A DNA stretch of 64,000 nucleotides from Streptomyces sp. NBC_00440 (GTDB lineage: Bacteria > Actinomycetota > Actinomycetes > Streptomycetales > Streptomycetaceae), in contig NZ_CP107921.1 of NCBI RefSeq assembly GCF_036014215.1, positions 4,781,501 to 4,845,500 of the forward strand, read 5' to 3'. Below are positions 27,781 to 36,602 of this stretch, piece by piece. Positions within the stretch are counted from its first letter, which is position 1, and each line of letters starts with the position of its first letter. The notes under the pieces were generated by a model. That model saw nothing but the letters and a program-made list of their open reading frames with translations, was not told the origin of the DNA and made no database searches. A program made the position numbers and the translations under genes.

Positions 27781-28248
27781 TCACTGGGGTGCGGTCGTGT
27801 CACCCCGTCCCGGCCAGTGCACCGGCTGGTCGCCGCCCTGGACAGCGAAGACCGTGCCGGATCCATGGGCGGTGTTGGTCTGTTCCAGGTGTGCGTGGGC
27901 GGCCTCCCGGTGGTTGTCCGGCATCGTGCGGCGTACCGCCTCCACCAGGTGCGCGAGCGGCTCACGGCAGGACGGCTCGCTGCGGAGCAGGGCTTGGAGT
28001 TCCATTTCCCAGGAACCCAGGAGTGCCTGCCGTGCGACGTCGGGGGCCGCAGCCCCCTCGACGAGCGCGGCGTGGCTGTCGAGCCGGGTCGCGATCTCCC
28101 GGCGCCGCCGGCCGGACCGGTGGAACAGGTCGGCCACGCCGTCGCGCACGGTCTGCCACAGGTCCGTGGTCATCGCGGTGACCAGGGTGGTCGCTCCGGC
28201 TGCCGCGAGTGTGGCCAGTTCGTCCTCCACGTAACTTCCCTTCCTCAT
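27781..28248 (-). CDS. Small helical protein with shared C-terminal motif B
   Basis: 155-aa protein of no known family. Residues 8-120 are predicted helical (LATLAAAGATTLVTAMTTDL, RREIATRLDSHAALVEG, EPLAHLVEAVRRTMPDN). The C-terminus has N125TAHGSGTVFAVQGGDQPVH144, here called motif B. Near-copies occur in the cyclase-like protein (222-241) and the 90-aa protein at 32546 (61-80). The start overlaps the stop of the cyclase-like gene (ATGA), so both are made together. The layout, effector-like body plus short terminal beta-type motif, is like actinobacterial proteins with NLR-associated amyloid signalling motifs. Function unknown. Confidence 0.75.
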   Translation of the reverse strand: MRKGSYVEDELATLAAAGATTLVTAMTTDLWQTVRDGVADLFHRSGRRRREIATRLDSHAALVEGAAAPDVARQALLGSWEMELQALLRSEPSCREPLAHLVEAVRRTMPDNHREAAHAHLEQTNTAHGSGTVFAVQGGDQPVHWPGRGDTTAPQ

Positions 28249-28985
28249 TCGGGCGGGCGTCCGTTGATGTTCTGGTTGCCGTTCTGCGTGGCGTAGACGA
28301 CGCCGTGTCCCGAAGCCTTGTTGATCATCTTCGACAGGCCCGCCGGGCGGTCCCGCCGGTGCGGTTCGACGGCCTGGTCCGGGGCAGCCGCTCCCCCCGT
28401 CGGAGCGGCTGCCCCGGGGAGGTGCAGCCAGGCGTTCGCCGAGTACTCCTTCTCTGTGACGTCAACCCGCCGGAAGGACTCGGGATCGATGCCCGGGTAG
28501 CCGTGCCGCACCGTTTCGTCGTAGAAGTGCTGGGAGACAAGGAGCGACGCGGGCACCGTGAGGGGTGCCCCGGCCAACGCCTCCCGGGCCGGGCTGGCGT
28601 CGAGCAGCCGGGCGAGCACCTCCAGCGGCCCCCCGGCGACCCCGGCCCGTCCGAGCCACACGTCACCGGCGTGCAACGCCACCCGGAGGCGGATCCGGGT
28701 CGGCCCTGCGGCCGTCCGGTTGTGCGCGTGCAGCCGGACCACCAGCTCGTGGAAGAGCGGGTGGATCAACCTGGACTTCGGCGCCCACGCCGGGGCGACG
28801 ATCCGGAGGCCGTCCCCGAGGTCGTTGATCCGGCAGTCCTGCCAGTCGATTCCGCTCTCTTTCAGCGCCTCCTGAAGCGTGTTCAGAAGCACCTCGCGGA
28901 TGCGCAGCAGGGCCACGTCGCCCCGGCCCCCTGAACGTTCGATGTCCACAGCCATCAGGGGCCGGTACTCCAGTACTGCGTCCAT
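28245..28985 (-). CDS. Class III nucleotidyl cyclase-like protein with C-terminal motif B
   Basis: 246-aa protein. It has a cyclase-homology-like domain (about 8-190): D14 in MAVDIERSGG and D58 in INDLGDGLRIVAP match the two metal Asp positions, RVALHAGDV and GVAGGPLEVLARLLDA match later cyclase blocks. Arg126 is where the transition-state Arg sits, but the usual Asn four residues before is Glu122, so activity or substrate may differ. After a linker comes motif B (N222KASGHGVVYATQNGNQNIN241). ATG 28983-28985 has GGAGGA. It is coupled to the 27781 gene and divergent from a Crp/Fnr gene. Confidence 0.75.
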   Translation of the reverse strand: MDAVLEYRPLMAVDIERSGGRGDVALLRIREVLLNTLQEALKESGIDWQDCRINDLGDGLRIVAPAWAPKSRLIHPLFHELVVRLHAHNRTAAGPTRIRLRVALHAGDVWLGRAGVAGGPLEVLARLLDASPAREALAGAPLTVPASLLVSQHFYDETVRHGYPGIDPESFRRVDVTEKEYSANAWLHLPGAAAPTGGAAAPDQAVEPHRRDRPAGLSKMINKASGHGVVYATQNGNQNINGRPPE

Positions 28986-29136
28986 GCGTTCCTCCGGTCC
29001 CGCCGGTCCAGCCTCGCCCGCCCACTGTGCACCAGGCGTGTGCCGGAGATCCCGTCCCAGTACGGAATCCGCCGAAGTTCGACGAAGTCGTTGACGCACG
29101 GGGGCTGTTGGGGGCCATGACCGGCGGTCCACCCGG

Positions 29137-29871
29137 GTGCACACTGATGCCGTGGTGAATTCTGCGGAGCGGCGGGCCGGGCGGAGACCGCGCGAGTCAT
29201 GGGCGTGGCCATCGGCGAGCGTGCTCGGGGGGCTCCCGCGGGCGGCGCGCGACCGGCTGCTCGCGCTGGGGGCCCTCGTGCGCTACCCGGGCGGCCGGGT
29301 GCTGATCCGTGAAGCGGAGGAGAGCACGTTCATGCTGATCCTGCTCGACGGTGTGGTCAAGGCGACCGGACGCACCAACGACCACCGGGATGCTCTCCTG
29401 GCCGTCCGTATGGGTGGCGACCTCGTCGGCGAGTTCGCCGCCGTCGACGGGCAGCCACGGTCCGCGACGGTGACGACGTGCGGGCCGGTCATCGCCCGCG
29501 TCGTGACCCGCGCCGACTTCCTCGACTGTATGCGGCACGACCGGCGGATCGCCCAGGCGGTCAACGAGTCGATCGTCGCCAAACTGCGGGTCGCGACGGG
29601 CCACCGTATCGACTTCACCGGCTGCGACGCCCCGACCCGGCTGGCCCGGGTGCTCTACCAGATCACCATGACCTACGGAGAGCGCACCGGCGCGGGCGCC
29701 ATCATCCGCTGGCCGATCACCCAGCCCGAACTGGCCACTCTCGCCGGTGCGGCGGAGCCAACCGTGCAGAAGGCGCTGCGAAGGCTCCGTGAAGCTGGTG
29801 TGGTGTCCACCGGCTACCGCACCTTCTGCGTCGAGAATCTCGCGCAGCTGCGTCAACTCGCCTGTGCCTGA
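29137..29871 (+). CDS. Crp/Fnr-family regulator
   Basis: 244-aa regulator. N-terminal cyclic-nucleotide-binding beta-roll (VRYPGGRVLIREAEESTFML, GDLVGEFAAVDGQPRSATV) and C-terminal winged helix (WPITQPELATLAGAAEPTVQ, LRREAG-like segment KALRRLREAGVV). The phosphate-binding cassette G-E-F-A-A-x6-R-S-A-T is well kept, so a cNMP-type ligand is plausible. GTG 29137 is used; GTG 29152 is also possible, and no strong ribosome-binding site helps. It is divergent from the cyclase-like gene and upstream of the NB-ARC gene, so it may sense the cyclase product and control one or both. Confidence 0.82.
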   Translation: MHTDAVVNSAERRAGRRPRESWAWPSASVLGGLPRAARDRLLALGALVRYPGGRVLIREAEESTFMLILLDGVVKATGRTNDHRDALLAVRMGGDLVGEFAAVDGQPRSATVTTCGPVIARVVTRADFLDCMRHDRRIAQAVNESIVAKLRVATGHRIDFTGCDAPTRLARVLYQITMTYGERTGAGAIIRWPITQPELATLAGAAEPTVQKALRRLREAGVVSTGYRTFCVENLAQLRQLACA

Positions 29872-29962
29872 AGTCCATCAAGGCACCGAGCGGTCGTCGG
29901 AAAGCCGTCGTAGGACGGTATTCGGGCGGCAGCGGGCCATTAGCGTGACAGCGGGCGGACCG

Positions 29963-29996
29963 CCTCCTGAACGGGGAGACCTCCTGAACGGGGAGA
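29963..29996. repeat. 17-bp direct repeat upstream of the NB-ARC gene
   Basis: CCTCCTGAACGGGGAGA occurs twice back to back, about 70 bases ahead of the NB-ARC start and after the Crp/Fnr stop. It may be a regulator site or a simple duplication. Confidence 0.6.
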
Positions 29997-30065
29997 CGGG
30001 GATGAGGCCTGATGTCTCGCGACAGGGACGACGGCAGTGGATGACCGGGCGGCACAGGGGGAGCG

Positions 30066-32534
30066 ATGCCAGACACGGATGACAACACGCGGACACCCGA
30101 CGGGCCGGGCGCGACGCACCGGATCGACGTCGGTGGCAGCGTCACCGGCTCCGTGATCGCGGGCAACCACAATGTGGTCGTCGACGCGCAGCAGGGCTCA
30201 CAGGTCACCGTGCTGGTCGGCCCCGAACGGCCCCGCCCTCAGCGCCGGGAGCGGGCCGAGGTTCTGCCCCGGAGTCTGCCGGAGCCGGTGGGCCGGGAGG
30301 AGGCGGCGCAGGCGCTGGCGGCGGCGGTCCGAGACGGAGGGCCGGTGCAGCTGTGGGGGCTGCCGGGGGTCGGCAAGACCACGCTGTTGCGGCACGCCGC
30401 GCGGTTGCTGCCTCCCGGGCCGGACGGGACGGTGTTCCTGGGCGGGGCCGATCGCGACATCGAGGATCTCGCCCAGGACGTGTTCGAGGCCTGCTACGAG
30501 GCCCCCGGGTATGCGCCGAACCGGGCGGAACTGCGACGGTTGATGACCGGTATGCGGGTGACGGTGTACGTGGATGACGCCGACCTGACGTCCGACCAGC
30601 TGCTTGAGTTGATGGACATGGCCCCGCAGGCAACGTTCGTCTTCGCCAGTGCCGAGCGGACGCTGTGGAGCGGCGGCACGGCACTGGAGCTGTGCGGTCT
30701 TTCGGAATCCGCCGGACGTGAGCTTCTGGAACGGGAGTTGGGCGGTCCGCTGGCGGACGCGGACCACGAGGCCGCCGCCGCTCTGTGCCGGGCCGCCGGT
30801 GGTCTGCCGCTGCCACTGCTGCGGGCGGCTGCCGTGGCGCGCTCCGGCCCGGAGGGCGAGGGCAGGCTCCCGCGCGTCGGCGAAGTCGCGGACCTGCTCC
30901 CGGCGTTGCTCGCCCAACTGGCCGACGACGAGTCGGTGATGGGGGTGCTGCACCTGCTCGCCACTTTCGACGGGGCGGAGGTGGCGGCCGTACATGTGGG
31001 GGCGCTGACGGAGGTGGCGGAGCCCGGCGCGGTGTGCGACCGGCTGGTGCGCCTGGGGCTGGCGTGTCTCGGCGAGTACGGCTACGCGTCCGTTGCCGAC
31101 ACGGTGCCGGTGGTGCGAGCGCGGTTCCCCGCGCCGTTCCCGGCCGAGCGGCTGTGCGACCACTTCACTCGGTGGGCGGCGCTCCGGGAAACCACGCCGC
31201 AGGAGCTGGCAGCCCACGGCAGGGTGCTGGAGAAGGTGGCCGAGGTGGCCGAGTCCTCGGGCCACCCGGATCTGGCAGTGCGGCTCGCACGGGCCACGTC
31301 GCCCGGGCTGGCCCGTTCGCTCCGGTTCGGTGTGTGGGGGCGGCTGCTCGGCCGTGGCTGGGCCGCGTCGCGCGCCGCGGACGACCGTCAGGCCGAGGCG
31401 TACTTCCTTCACGAGGAGGCCGTCCGGGCCCTGCTGATCGGCAAGCGGGTCGTGTACGCGGCGCTGCTGGCTCACGCGGCGTGGCTCGGGCATGAACTGG
31501 CCGCCGGGTCGGCGACCGGTGCCGGCGGAGGGGCGGGGGCCCACGCGAGCGGTGCAGCCGGAGGGGCGGGGGCCCACGCGAGCGGTGGGCAACCTTCCTT
31601 CGACGTCCACCACTACATGGGTCAGCACGGCTTCGGGTCGGCCCACTCAGGTGCTTCCGCCGGTCATGGCGCCCTGGCCCAGCCGTCGGTGGGCTCCGGA
31701 GGGGCAGGCTCCTGGGGCGGGGCCCCGGGCCATGGAAGTGCCGGTGCATCGGCCTCGGGGCACGGCGGTGGCGGTGCGTCTGTAGCTTCGGGGCACGGTG
31801 GCGGTAGCGCCTCGGGTCTCACGGGCCACGGTGGCGGTAGCGCCTCGGGTCTCACGGGCCACGGCGGGGCATCCGGTGCGGCCGCGCACTCGGCGGGTGC
31901 CGGTGGCGGTTCCTGGGGTGGCGCCACGACAGCGTCGTCCGGTGCCGCGACGACAACGACGGCAACGACAGCAACGACGGCAGCGACAACGGCGACGGCG
32001 GTGGGAGCGGCGAGTGCGGGCCTGAGCACCTTGGCCGTGACCCTCGTCTCCCTGGTCATCGCCTGTGCGCTGGTCGCGGGCGTGGGCTACGCCATCAGCT
32101 CGTCAAGTTCCCACAACGGACAGTCGCGATCGAGTGACGCGCGCAACGAGGCGCTGCCGACCCCGTCGTTCTCCCTCCCGTCGGAGCTGACAGATACCTC
32201 GACGCCCACTGACGATCCTCTTGAGGATCCGGCGGGGTGTGAAGAGCAGTCCGACGCGAAGCAGAAGTCCGATGAGGCCGGGGCAACGGCACCGATCACG
32301 AACCCCGCCGCTGATCAAGCGTGGGCCGCGAACGAGCAGCAGCTCTCAGAGGACCTGGCGGCGGCGGCCGGGGCCGCGACCGACCCATCGATCAAGTCGG
32401 CGATCCAGAAGGAGTCGTCGGATCACGCATCTCTCGCGAGCGCGATCACCCGCGATGACCTGGCGGCCATCGACCAGTATGTGGACGCCACCGGCGACGA
32501 CGCATCCGCGGTGACCGATCTCTGCTACTCGTAG
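30066..32534 (+). CDS. Transmembrane NB-ARC (NLR-like) ATPase with N-terminal motif A
   Basis: 822-aa STAND-type protein. N-terminus holds motif A (GGSVTGSVIAGNHNVVV, 23-39). NB-ARC follows: Walker A GLPGVGKTT (98-106), Walker B VTVYVDDAD (165-173), FVFASAERTLW sensor-like (191-201) and GGLPLPLL (245-252), then a winged-helix/helical arm to about 485. A Gly/Ser/His-rich linker (about 485-640, with two perfect 33-bp repeats) leads to one membrane helix (653-677). An external 145-aa tail follows with C725 and C820 able to form a disulfide. Thus signal input may be outside and output inside. ATG 30066 has GGGGGAG. Followed after 11 bases by the 90-aa gene. Function inferred only. Confidence 0.82.
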   Translation: MPDTDDNTRTPDGPGATHRIDVGGSVTGSVIAGNHNVVVDAQQGSQVTVLVGPERPRPQRRERAEVLPRSLPEPVGREEAAQALAAAVRDGGPVQLWGLPGVGKTTLLRHAARLLPPGPDGTVFLGGADRDIEDLAQDVFEACYEAPGYAPNRAELRRLMTGMRVTVYVDDADLTSDQLLELMDMAPQATFVFASAERTLWSGGTALELCGLSESAGRELLERELGGPLADADHEAAAALCRAAGGLPLPLLRAAAVARSGPEGEGRLPRVGEVADLLPALLAQLADDESVMGVLHLLATFDGAEVAAVHVGALTEVAEPGAVCDRLVRLGLACLGEYGYASVADTVPVVRARFPAPFPAERLCDHFTRWAALRETTPQELAAHGRVLEKVAEVAESSGHPDLAVRLARATSPGLARSLRFGVWGRLLGRGWAASRAADDRQAEAYFLHEEAVRALLIGKRVVYAALLAHAAWLGHELAAGSATGAGGGAGAHASGAAGGAGAHASGGQPSFDVHHYMGQHGFGSAHSGASAGHGALAQPSVGSGGAGSWGGAPGHGSAGASASGHGGGGASVASGHGGGSASGLTGHGGGSASGLTGHGGASGAAAHSAGAGGGSWGGATTASSGAATTTTATTATTAATTATAVGAASAGLSTLAVTLVSLVIACALVAGVGYAISSSSSHNGQSRSSDARNEALPTPSFSLPSELTDTSTPTDDPLEDPAGCEEQSDAKQKSDEAGATAPITNPAADQAWAANEQQLSEDLAAAAGAATDPSIKSAIQKESSDHASLASAITRDDLAAIDQYVDATGDDASAVTDLCYS
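31800..31865 (+). repeat. Two 33-bp tandem repeats inside the NB-ARC gene
   Basis: Two copies, identical but for the last base, each encode GGSASGLTGHG in the flexible linker before the membrane helix. Related degenerate GHGGG units flank them. Unit length is a multiple of three, so copy changes keep the frame. Confidence 0.85.
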
Positions 32535-32545
32535 GAGCCATCATC

Positions 32546-32818
32546 GTGTCACCGTCACCTTCGCCGCCGCCGCCGTCGTCGCCGGGCGACGAGTTCACCG
32601 TCCGGATCGGCGGCGACGTGTCCGGCCCCGTCGTCGTCGGCCACGACAACCACGTCGAAGTGCACCAACCCGCCCCCGCGACCCCACCCGTGCCAGAACC
32701 GGACCCTGCGACGTCGACCCAGACCAACACGGCGAAGGGCCACGGCACTGTCTATGCCGTCACCAACGGCGACATGCACATCCACCAGGACGGGGGAGAG
32801 GGACGATACCCACAATGA
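32546..32818 (+). CDS. 90-aa two-motif protein (candidate signalling adaptor)
   Basis: Small protein with no enzymatic domain. A Ser/Pro tract (1-15) leads to motif A (FTVRIGGDVSGPVVVGHDNH, 17-36), matching the NB-ARC N-terminus, then a Pro-rich spacer and motif B (N61TAKGHGTVYAVTNGDMHIH80), matching the C-termini of the cyclase-like and 27781 proteins. It is the only product with both motifs, as expected of an adaptor joining the ATPase to the effectors. GTG 32546 has GTAGGAG upstream; the stop overlaps the next ATG (32815). Short Gly/Asn beta motifs of this kind resemble NLR-associated amyloid motifs; assembly is inferred. Confidence 0.75.
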   Translation: MSPSPSPPPPSSPGDEFTVRIGGDVSGPVVVGHDNHVEVHQPAPATPPVPEPDPATSTQTNTAKGHGTVYAVTNGDMHIHQDGGEGRYPQ

Positions 32819-33732
32819 CCGGTACGTCCAGTACGTCCAGTACGTCCGGTACGACCGATGAACCGGGGCACGGGGGCGCGCTTGCCGTCCCTGCCAGTGC
32901 GGTGTGGCTCAAAGGGCAGCTGCTGGAGATCGCTTCCGCGCTGCACCCGGACCGCCGACCCGTGGTGGTCCGTGAGTGGACTGACCCGGTACGGCTGCGC
33001 GACCCCGCACCGGTCGGTCATCGCTTCCTGTTCCTCGTCTGCGTCAGCGGGGGCGATCCGCCCTCGTCTGCCGGTTTCGACGACGTCCTGAACGCCTTCA
33101 CCGTGGCCGGCTGGAACGTGCACCGACGGTCTTCCGGCCACCCCGGGGAGAGCTGGGCGACGGCCCGGCGCGAAGAGTTCGAGGTCAAGGTCTACGAGGG
33201 CGACGGGCCCGGAATCCTGTCGCTCACCGGCTGGACACCGGTCGTGTACACCGAACGGCAGTTGGGCCAGCCGCTCTTCACCCTCACCACGGCCACTGGT
33301 GTGTTGTGCGACGACTGTCACGGCTGGGGGGTGTGCCTGCTCTGCGAAGGCAGGGCCTACAGCGGCGGCAGCGGCGGCTACGGGCGGTGCTCGTGTGCCG
33401 GAAACAACGCGGGGCCCGGCAAGTGTGTGGAATGCGCCGGGCGGGGTTTCCTCACCTCCGATGCGGTGTCGTGGAAGCGGAAGCAGTACGGACTGCCTGC
33501 TGCCGACCGGAGCGACGCCTGGCCACAGCCGCCGGCCGAGGACGGCCACGACTCCAACACCAGCGCGTTCGCCGATGTCGCCCAACGGCCCTGTGTATGC
33601 GGGGAGTTCCGGTGCTTCTGGTGCAACATCCTCACCCCGGCAGACGATCACCTCCTCTCCCGGTTCACCGGTATCTGCCAGGGATGCGCAGCGCAGCGCT
33701 CCTATGCGTTCACGCTTCCTCCCCGCGAGTGA
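32815..33732 (+). CDS. Cys-rich multi-zinc-site protein of the NB-ARC operon
   Basis: 305-aa protein of unknown family. Residues 28-160 form an alpha/beta domain (QLLEIASALHPDRRPVVVRE, FLFLVCVSGG, VKVYEGDGPGILSLTGWTPV). The C-terminal half has CxxC/CxC sites at 165/168, 174/177, 192/194, 204/207, 260/262, 267/270 and 288/291, and a DnaJ-zinc-finger-like spacing (CDDCHGWGVCLLCEGRAY, CVECAGRGF), enough for three to four zinc ions. The N-terminus has Ser/Thr repeats from 9-base units. ATG overlaps the 90-aa gene stop (ATGA), so translation is coupled. It could be a chaperone-like or nucleic-acid-binding output; no catalytic motif is seen. Confidence 0.78.
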   Translation: MTGTSSTSSTSGTTDEPGHGGALAVPASAVWLKGQLLEIASALHPDRRPVVVREWTDPVRLRDPAPVGHRFLFLVCVSGGDPPSSAGFDDVLNAFTVAGWNVHRRSSGHPGESWATARREEFEVKVYEGDGPGILSLTGWTPVVYTERQLGQPLFTLTTATGVLCDDCHGWGVCLLCEGRAYSGGSGGYGRCSCAGNNAGPGKCVECAGRGFLTSDAVSWKRKQYGLPAADRSDAWPQPPAEDGHDSNTSAFADVAQRPCVCGEFRCFWCNILTPADDHLLSRFTGICQGCAAQRSYAFTLPPRE

Positions 33733-34910: not shown

Positions 34911-36347
34911 CTACATGTCCTCGGGGACCTTGATGATGTCCCACTCCCGGTCGTCATTGTTGGCGCACTTCTGGAGCGTGAGCCGGTTCTTGGTGGTAAC
35001 CGGCTTACCGGGCGGGCTGAACCCGTCGACGTTCAGGCAGAGTCCGTTGCTCGCTTGGTTGCGGAACCAGTAGTGGCCGTCGTCCTGCTTGGCGAGCCAC
35101 CACAGCTGGTTGTCGGGATTGGTGCCGGCGCAGGTGGACTCGGACACCAGGGCCCCGATCGGCTGGCTGCCCCCCTCCGGCAGGTCCATGCAGAGGCGGT
35201 CCTTGATGTTGCGGATCTGGAAGAGGCTGTTGTTGTTCGGGCCGCCGTGCGGGTGCTGGACCTCAAGGTCCCAGATCTGGTTGTCCTGGTCCGTGGGGTT
35301 GCAGTCGTTCTCCTGGACCGGGCCGCCGATCTGGCCGTTGTCCCTGCCGGGGAGTTCGGCGCACAGGTGGGTGACCGAGTTCTTGATCAGTACACGCTTC
35401 TGGTTCGCCGGGTCGGGCTTCTTCTTGGGAGCGCCTCCGCCGCCGCCTCCGCCGCCTCCACTGCCGCCGCCGCTGTTGCCGGTGTCCGGGTTCGGAGCTG
35501 ACGGCGTGGGCGGCGGGGGCACGCTGGCCGCGGGCGTCGGGAGGCTCTGTGTGGGGGTGGGGGCGGGGATGTCGCCGGCTTGTGCGACCTTGGCGGTGGC
35601 GCGGGTGGCGACGGTGGGTTTGTGGGTGAACCAGGCCATGATGAAGACGATGGCGATGGCCATGAAGATGGCGAAGACGGTGGCGAGCCAGCGGGGGAGT
35701 ACTCCGCGTTGGACGTAGGTGCCGTCGACGTCGAGGGGTTTGGTGCCGGAGCGCTGGATGGCGAGTTTGTAGGGGCGGTCCTGTTTGCGGCCGAACCAGA
35801 TGATCTGGCGGGGGCGGAGGGTGGCGCGTACGAAGGCGGCGCGGCCGGGTTCGATCTGGACGTTGGCCGGGAGGATCTCGTACGAGAGCTGGTCGCCGTT
35901 CTCGCTGCCGTTGATCGATGCGGTGAGCTTGGTGTTGCCGAGGTTGTCGATCGCGAGCTTGGGGCGTCCGCGGAAGCGTCCCTTGACGGTGTGGGGTACG
36001 AGTTCTGCGCGGACTTCGGAGAACGGGGTGATGGTGACGTTGCCCTCGGGGACGGTGGTCGCCTCGGGGTGTTCGGTGGGGATGACCTGGACGCCGTACG
36101 GGTTGGGTCCGGCGATGGCGTCGGGGGTGCGCGGCGGGGCGAACGTGAGGTCCACGGTGCCGGTGGTGCCGGGGAAGAGTCGGATGGTCGGTGGTTCGAC
36201 GGTCACGTACGGGGCGAGGTCACCGACGGGTACGCACCGGTACTCGTCGACGACGTCGCCCGTGTTGCGCAGCCGTAGCCGCACGGTGGCCGTACTGCCG
36301 GGGTCCACTGTGGTGGACGCCGGCTCCAGAGAAGTCCAGATGCTCAT
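34911..36347 (-). CDS. Membrane-anchored protein with C-terminal ricin-type lectin domain
   Basis: 478-aa protein. Residues 1-210 form Ig-like beta domains (TSLEPASTTVDPGSTATVRL, PPTIRLFPGTTGTVDL). One membrane helix follows (WLATVFAIFMAIAIVFIMAWF, about 220-240), then a Pro/Gly-rich linker and a ricin B-like domain (about 330-478) with QxW-type repeats (NQIWDLE, NQLWWLA, REWDII) and Cys pairs (THLCAELPG, RLCMDLPEG, GLCLNVDG). The orientation places the lectin on the far side of the membrane from the Ig-like part. It could bind wall or host glycans. ATG 36345 or GTG 36357; a TAGTGT box just upstream suggests a short leader. Confidence 0.8.
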   Translation of the reverse strand: MSIWTSLEPASTTVDPGSTATVRLRLRNTGDVVDEYRCVPVGDLAPYVTVEPPTIRLFPGTTGTVDLTFAPPRTPDAIAGPNPYGVQVIPTEHPEATTVPEGNVTITPFSEVRAELVPHTVKGRFRGRPKLAIDNLGNTKLTASINGSENGDQLSYEILPANVQIEPGRAAFVRATLRPRQIIWFGRKQDRPYKLAIQRSGTKPLDVDGTYVQRGVLPRWLATVFAIFMAIAIVFIMAWFTHKPTVATRATAKVAQAGDIPAPTPTQSLPTPAASVPPPPTPSAPNPDTGNSGGGSGGGGGGGGGAPKKKPDPANQKRVLIKNSVTHLCAELPGRDNGQIGGPVQENDCNPTDQDNQIWDLEVQHPHGGPNNNSLFQIRNIKDRLCMDLPEGGSQPIGALVSESTCAGTNPDNQLWWLAKQDDGHYWFRNQASNGLCLNVDGFSPPGKPVTTKNRLTLQKCANNDDREWDIIKVPEDM

Positions 36348-36602
36348 TGTGTCGAACACTAGTCAGCATCATGACCCGGTGTCACCAGACTACGGGGCAC
36401 GGCCGTTGCCCCGGGCGGCCTCTCCGGCTGCCCTTCGTGCCGCCCTGTCCGAATCGCACCGTGGAGACCCAGCTGATCCACGTTGACCTGCACTGGGGCA
36501 CTCAGCGCCCGGCGCCCGACGGCCCGCTGCCACCTGAGCCTCCGGCGTCAACCGTCAACGCACTGCTCATGCCGGTGCTCCACAGCGGGCCGACCGGGGC
36601 CG

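Follow-up and report, generated by a model that had tools for sequence, protein, structure and literature searches.

A candidate membrane-anchored NLR-like signalling relay with a putative two-motif adaptor in Streptomyces

Five neighbouring genes in Streptomyces sp. NBC_00440 encode a set of proteins, four of which carry one or both of two short motifs, here called A and B. It is reasonably probable that the set is a membrane-anchored signalling relay resembling those of NOD-like receptors (NLRs), in which a small bivalent adaptor connects a receptor with its effectors. The window, meaning the whole stretch of DNA analysed, covers 64,000 nucleotides (positions 4,781,501 to 4,845,500 of contig NZ_CP107921.1) of a genome of 8.68 Mb in two contigs. 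The genes form two divergent units. On the minus strand, those for a 155-residue helical protein and a cyclase-like protein overlap by 4 nt; the plus strand unit comprises a Crp-type regulator, a P-loop NTPase (the proposed receptor), and a 90-residue protein (the proposed adaptor). The features, in window coordinates, are as follows.

27781..28248, minus strand: candidate Bell-like effector, a helical protein of 155 residues that ends in motif B (AlphaFold2 model with mean predicted local distance difference test, pLDDT, of 83; motif B 47.7 bits)
27817..27882, minus strand: motif B copy of the helical protein (motif B profile search of the genome)
28245..28985, minus strand: protein with predicted class III nucleotidyl-cyclase fold and C-terminal motif B (AlphaFold2 mean pLDDT 89; Foldseek match to 2w01, E=1.2e-8); start codon uncertain, at 28985, 28970 or farther upstream
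28263..28328, minus strand: motif B copy of the cyclase-like protein (motif B profile search of the genome)
29052..29065, no strand: operator-like palindrome CCGT-N6-ACGG in the cyclase-crp gap (an exact copy in 8 of 15 loci)
29137..29871, plus strand: Crp-type regulator, PF00027 and HTH_Crp_2 PF13545 (Pfam; cyclic nucleotide, cNMP, cassette in 16 of 18 orthologues); start uncertain, at 29137 or 29221
29905..29918, no strand: operator-like palindrome of the same form, CCGT-N6-ACGG, ahead of the NTPase gene (an exact copy in 5 of 15 loci)
29941..29946, plus strand: TAGCGT, a -10-like box (exactly 22 nt past the palindrome in 13 of 15 loci)
30066..32534, plus strand: STAND-like P-loop NTPase, the proposed receptor (motif A, Walker A, linker, transmembrane (TM) helix, outer domain)
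30114..30185, plus strand: motif A copy of the NTPase (motif A profile search of the genome)
32019..32096, plus strand: residues 652-677 of the NTPase, a TM helix predicted from hydrophobicity
32211..32531, plus strand: NTPase region from residue 716 on, a putative outer domain (type differs among loci)
32546..32818, plus strand: 90-residue putative bivalent adaptor, with motif A, a variable Pro/Ala-rich linker and motif B (family conservation; motif profiles)
32591..32662, plus strand: motif A copy of the adaptor (motif A profile search of the genome)
32720..32785, plus strand: motif B copy of the adaptor (motif B profile search of the genome)

The motifs are 22 to 24 residues long, with consensus sequences of approximately I-x-G-x-A-x-G-P-V-V-A-G-x-x-N-x-V for motif A and Q-x-N-T-A-x-G-x-G-T-V-x-A-V-Q-N-G-x-Q-H-I-H for motif B. 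With the 90-residue protein as query, BLASTP finds the 155-residue protein (E=1e-6), the cyclase-like protein (5e-6) and the NTPase (0.002). The initial annotation had placed motif A in the NTPase and the 90-residue protein, motif B in the cyclase-like, 155-residue and 90-residue proteins, and both motifs in the 90-residue protein only. Hidden Markov models (HMMs) built from 25 seeds each, all less than 85% identical to the window copies, recover exactly this pattern among the 935 open reading frames (ORFs) of the window. The motif A model hits the adaptor (48.0 bits) and the NTPase (28.8 bits), with the next best ORF at 5.1; the motif B model hits the 155-residue protein, the adaptor (43.8 bits) and the cyclase-like protein (43.3 bits), with the next best at 4.7. 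The gaps to the next ORF are about 24 bits for A and about 39 bits for B, and the initial observation is confirmed; A and B matches overlap solely in the adaptor, and the two motifs show no cross-match in the same test. Across the whole genome at E<=0.01, profiles that include the window copies among their seeds give two matches for motif A, both in the adaptor and NTPase, and three for motif B, in the adaptor, the cyclase-like protein and the helical protein. In samples of 101 genomes of the genus, motif A occurs in 8 and motif B in 11. Motif A matches number exactly two, one in the adaptor and one in the receptor, in 14 of the 15 adaptor-encoding genomes searched, and three in the other, G003. 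The adaptor matches no Pfam family at E<=1, nor does Pfam return a significant family for the cyclase-like or 155-residue protein.

A search of about 5.8 billion proteins returns 19 homologues of the 90-residue protein at E<=0.01. Conservation in the family lies mainly at the two motifs, and the linker between them varies in length and sequence, the look that would be expected of a bivalent adaptor. The adaptor alignment retrieved 22 related loci, and in 17 of them a leftward cyclase gene is followed by rightward genes for Crp, NTPase and adaptor; the helical gene is present in 14 of these 17 full loci. Within the 17, the helical and crp genes of L024 are fragments, and in L017 two additional genes separate crp from the NTPase gene. 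Three of the remaining five loci (L019, L023, L027) are at a contig end, with at most 1.6 kb available upstream of the adaptor. The partial ORF upstream in L019 has no receptor match, yet starts in a similar Gly/Ala/His-rich stretch. Besides Streptomyces, the hosts are Saccharomonospora (L025), Streptomonospora (L028) and, for L019, an actinomycete without classification; three more loci (L061, L068, L073) are further diverged. Among 392 genomes of the same genus, 14 encode the adaptor (L031-L042, plus G146 and G275), and the same 14 encode the cyclase orthologue, as delimited by a score gap (at least 162 bits against at most 116 bits); a receptor match adjoins the adaptor in each of L031-L042. 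In a class-wide draw of 394 genomes, the sole adaptor locus outside the genus is that of G731 (L104), which is the same locus as L028. The genes therefore do co-occur, and the proposal that a two-motif adaptor joins one receptor to two effectors is well supported by this conservation and co-occurrence, together with the one-motif pairs found elsewhere.

Parts on both sides of the adaptor vary. The receptor C-terminus past the TM helix falls into at least three sequence types: type 1 in the window, L010 and the orphan locus L108, a Cys-containing GLAGxW type 2 in most other loci, and type 3 in L068 and L073. The orphan is the third motif A match of G003, an unlinked receptor gene (L108 7128-9818, plus strand) whose product is 63% identical to the window receptor (570 of 904 alignment columns). 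No adaptor or effector gene adjoins it, the adaptor locus of G003 being elsewhere; its promoter has an exact CCGT-N6-ACGG 22 nt before TAGGGT. The Streptomonospora locus lacks the helical gene. Directly after its adaptor gene stands one for a 115-residue protein (L028 10286-10633, plus strand, the same as L104 8954-9301, plus strand) whose N-terminal half is hydrophobic and whose C-terminus carries motif B (16 bits), a possible substitute for the missing helical effector. The receptor types, the 115-residue protein and the orphan receptor together suggest a hub in which both the sensors on one side and the outputs on the other can be exchanged.

Likeness between motif copies within loci was compared with 20,000 permutations (n=23), with repeats after removal of six duplicates (n=17) and without L061 and L068. 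For adaptor A and receptor A, 0 of 20,000 permutations scored as high (P=1.5e-4 at n=17; 0.003 without L061 and L068). For adaptor B, P is 0.002 in the full set and 0.029 deduplicated with the helical copy, and 0.05 in the full set with the cyclase copy. Control pairs are not significant in the full set (cyclase B/helical B 0.82, adaptor A/cyclase B 0.95, adaptor B/receptor A 0.33) or in the reduced sets. The A side co-varies, and co-variation on the B side is weak.

The receptor consists of the N-terminal motif A, a Walker A at residue 98, a low-complexity linker, one TM helix and the outer domain; Walker A is found in 17 of 18 receptors. Its earlier label, NB-ARC, is not supported as such: no NB-ARC family is matched in Pfam. 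AAA_16, AAA_22, nSTAND_NTPase5 (6.7e-5) and weaker families are matched, all below their own cut-offs, and a PDB profile search gives P-loop matches only. Judged by these profiles, the protein is a STAND-like P-loop NTPase.

The model of the cyclase-like protein is of low confidence in the C-terminal tail. Foldseek ranks Cya2 (2w01) best, also finds CyaC, Ma1120 (target TM-score, TMt, 0.75) and Rv1900c, and has only cyclases among the top 50 matches listed; by its model, the protein has a class III nucleotidyl cyclase fold. A PDB search by sequence gives weak matches only. Residues D14, D58 and R126 are invariant in 67 sequences; we take the first two to be the class III metal-binding Asp positions and the third to be the transition-state Arg position. 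Fold and metal-ligand positions make the protein a predicted cyclase. Motif B stands at the C-terminus in 117 of the 120 homologues listed, out of 216 significant ones. In one locus (L103 3227-5347) the cyclase gene is split by two genes that resemble an IS-type transposase pair.

In the model of the helical protein there are five main helices, of which the first is rich in Ala and Val, and the tail, which includes motif B, is of low confidence; structure searches give no significant fold match. Eight of its 14 stand-alone relatives directly precede large Walker A proteins, and the N-termini of those eight partners show by eye a B-like G-[YF]-x-Y-G...-[AV]-H-V-F stretch that lies below the reporting line of the B profile.

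The Crp-type regulator matches PF00027 (cNMP-binding) and PF13545 (HTH_Crp_2) above the Pfam cut-off. The pattern G-E-[FL]-A ... P-R-[SA]-A, presumably the phosphate-binding cassette of the cNMP-binding Crp branch, is kept in 16 of the 18 readable orthologues; L068 and L073 read PRIG. Operator-like sites were tabulated in 15 loci (window, L009-L012, L015-L018, L020, L021, L025, L026, L028 and L068), leaving out L013, L014, L022, L024, L061, the contig-end loci (no usable cyclase/crp/receptor gap) and L073. Exact copies of CCGT-N6-ACGG, in eight of these loci in the cyclase-crp gap and in five in the crp-receptor gap, compare with 0.25 and 0.12 expected; with at most one mismatch, there are 12 loci for each gap, against 3.9 and 2.8 expected, respectively. 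Upstream of the NTPase gene, 13 of the 15 loci have the palindrome followed at exactly 22 nt by TAGCGT, or 11 of 13 distinct loci because window/L009 and L016/L018 are near duplicates. This spacing puts the palindrome centre near -41.5, which we take to be the class II Crp activation position, and is as expected if Crp binds there and activates in the class II manner. By these sequence comparisons, the regulator is a conserved member of the set, as the initial annotation had it, and has a conserved operator-like site. Of the 16 paralogous cyclases sampled, four also have an exact palindrome upstream, compared with a rate of 3.2% in random stretches; these four form two related pairs, with the most similar Crp proteins. 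Ahead of the cyclase gene in L097 and L102, the exact palindrome is followed at exactly 22 nt by TAGCCT, so that the operator-like layout extends beyond the adaptor loci.

Elsewhere, motif A or motif B alone appears to join an NTPase directly to an effector. In L078 a protein that resembles nucleoside phosphorylases by sequence ends in motif B, and the next gene encodes a 1416-residue Walker A protein with motif B at its start; L106 has the same direct B-type arrangement. Direct A-type pairs of a small protein and a Walker A protein occur in L109 (score 60 against a shuffle maximum of 58, which is marginal) and L110 (97 against 74). The adaptor would thus fuse two separate channels into one pathway.

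Cyclase relatives are found in 217 of 392 genus genomes at E<=1e-10. Nearly all of the 16 sampled paralogues have a Crp gene near (15, not L100), and 14 have a large next gene (not L099 or L100). The C-terminus of the enzyme matches the N-terminal part of its large partner above all 500 shuffles in 13 of 15 modules tested (14 cyclase modules plus L078), with no match above shuffles in L095 and L101; some of these alignments are long and of low complexity, and about nine look like compact motifs by eye. Walker A is present in only two of the 14 large cyclase partners (L094, L105), and the other 12 lack support as NTPases. One sampled module, L085, with matched C- and N-terminal motifs, lies in the genome of the window itself (G000:C1, about 4.91 Mb). 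Its neighbour gene, like one beside L090, L091 and L098, looks like ribosomal protein S12.

The inflammasome adaptor ASC (PYD-CARD) and the RHIM necrosome exemplify a bivalent homotypic adaptor between an NLR and an effector. The layout described here would work alike, but with short motifs rather than death folds; the likeness is one of function, and RHIM is unmatched by sequence. Bacterial Death-like and effector-associated adaptor domains, as they appear in passages of PMC8195603, likewise bridge receptor and effector homotypically, but are folded domains and not motifs of 22-24 residues.

Receptor/effector motif pairs of NLR-like systems, the bacterial amyloid signalling sequences (BASS), are described in passages of PMC7889193 and PMC12261475, so the initial claim of an undescribed system is only partly right: what the relevant passages (PMC8086366, PMC7889193, PMC8195603, PMC12261475, PMC7885112, PMC7159879, PMC9815663) do not include, among their descriptions of BASS pairs or of cNMP cyclases in other conflict systems, is a two-motif adaptor. 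As outlined in passages of PMC7889193, PMC9815663 and PMC12261475, the BASS-type NLR/Bell amyloid signalosomes of filamentous bacteria share with the present set a clustering of NLR-like NTPase and effector genes (here in 17 of 22 loci), a short motif at the receptor N-terminus and effector C-terminus, and a small helical effector (here a candidate). Unlike them, the present receptor (A) and effectors (B) carry different motifs bridged by a two-motif adaptor, the cyclase and Crp are conserved parts, and the receptor has a TM helix and outer domain. In a strict BASS system one motif recurs at the N-terminus of the NLR and at the C-terminus of its effector; as the present receptor and effectors have no motif in common, we do not claim such membership.

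Pycsar, the cyclic-pyrimidine defence system, also combines a cyclase with a cyclic-nucleotide-binding partner, and the Crp protein matches the PADLOC models PycTIR (2.4e-13) and PycC (1.1e-5) over its N-terminal half. Here, unlike Pycsar, the binding partner is a DNA-binding regulator and there is an extra receptor. A PycC-type cyclase was rejected: in PADLOC the cyclase-like protein has no PycC match and hits only an oligonucleotide-cyclase model, at E=0.044. The Streptomyces Crp-cyclase-large-protein modules (L085, L090-L098, L101, L102, L104, L105) have the Crp neighbour, a cyclase relative and, in most, a motif at the cyclase C-terminus that has its match in the large protein encoded next, but no adaptor, and seldom a Walker A in the large partner.

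The best reading of the locus is a variant of matched-motif (BASS-like) NLR signalling that is bridged by an adaptor and uses a second messenger, with amyloid a candidate property. The domain past the TM helix may sense an envelope or extracellular cue, on which the cytoplasmic STAND-like NTPase would oligomerise and cluster its N-terminal motif A. Clustered motif A would recruit or template the matching motif A of the adaptor, and adaptor motif B would in turn recruit or template the matching C-terminal motif B of the cyclase-fold and helical proteins. By analogy with what passages of PMC9815663 describe, the helical protein may be a membrane effector similar to Bell. The activated cyclase, to go by its fold and metal-ligand positions, would make a cyclic nucleotide, which would activate the neighbouring Crp protein. 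This would bind the CCGT-N6-ACGG sites and, given their spacing, activate the receptor-adaptor operon in the class II manner, which would make the loop a positive feedback.

Several observations weigh against this reading. The TM topology of the receptor is a prediction, as is the role of the helical protein, and the L017 receptor lacks an intact Walker A. In the cyclase, what we take to be the class III transition-state Asn position appears as Glu (E122, nearly invariant in the 67 sequences). The spaced palindrome/TAGCGT site is missing in L020 and L068, the palindrome is not enriched in the window (60 against 68 expected, with at most one mismatch), and the composite site genome-wide is not above a reversed control; the signal therefore lies in position and conservation. 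Without L061 and L068, P rises to 0.16 for adaptor B/helical B and 0.52 for adaptor B/cyclase B (0.17 deduplicated); Mantel correlations are high for control pairs too, and the permutation test ignores shared ancestry. Two loci, L029 and L030, hold only parts, with adaptor pieces that have motif B only, and crp and receptor were not found in L029. At E<=10 neither motif profile finds a match in the PDB, RHIM structures included.

The likeliest purpose, held at about even confidence, would be to raise an alarm or mount a defence upon infection or damage to the cell surface. Patchy spread (14 of 392 genus genomes) and swapped outer domains resemble conflict genes, and count against an envelope-stress or developmental switch, in which an outer signal would lead through a cyclic nucleotide to a Crp-driven change in transcription. 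This switch is credible all the same, a little short of even: a transcription factor and operator-like sites are among the conserved parts, the helical gene is missing from three of the 17 full loci, PADLOC has no match for the adaptor, receptor or helical protein, and the paralogous module L085 adjoins the S12-like gene. The same wiring might also be non-amyloid, A and B being strand-pairing tags with stoichiometric, reversible contacts and the adaptor a soluble tether. The lack of any RHIM or other PDB match and the low-confidence motif-bearing tails of the cyclase and helical models speak for such tags, whereas the motifs agree with the BASS description in passages of PMC7889193 and PMC12261475 in their length, their Gly/Asn/Gln-rich pattern and their placement at the N-terminus of the receptor and the C-terminus of the effector, and we consider tags rather unlikely. 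That the 90-residue protein is a brake, capping A and B assemblies and separating receptor from effectors until removed, is improbable, since a receptor and effectors with no common motif have no evident link to brake without a bridge, although the protein is small, has both motifs and directly follows the receptor gene, and bridge and decoy are indistinguishable from sequence alone.

Two genes downstream stand apart from the set. The first, 32815-33732 on the plus strand, encodes a Cys-rich multi-zinc protein of 305 residues with several CxxC, and overlaps the adaptor stop by 4 nt. It had been counted as a component; it is probably a passenger, because only 1 of the 22 related loci has a homologue (L009, the locus most similar to the window). 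The second, 34911-36359 on the minus strand, encodes a 482-residue protein that has a ricin-type lectin domain (PF14200) at its C-terminus and, at its N-terminus, an Ig-like match that falls below the cut-off; it is probably unrelated.

The prospects are even that the locus holds a bacterial counterpart of the inflammasome adaptor, made up of two short motifs that may be amyloid. As a hub of about 70-115 residues, it would connect interchangeable membrane receptors (motif A, including the unlinked orphan, which has the same Crp-type site) with outputs that are interchangeable too (motif B: cyclase, helical effector, Streptomonospora small hydrophobic protein), and a cyclic-nucleotide/Crp loop would amplify receptor expression. 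In the matched-motif NLR systems, as the passages cited above describe them, one common motif pairs receptor and effector. If the reading is true, a bivalent adaptor would mean that bacteria evolved inflammasome-like bridging, one receptor could drive several outputs and several receptors one output, and such assemblies would be tied to a second messenger and a transcription factor.

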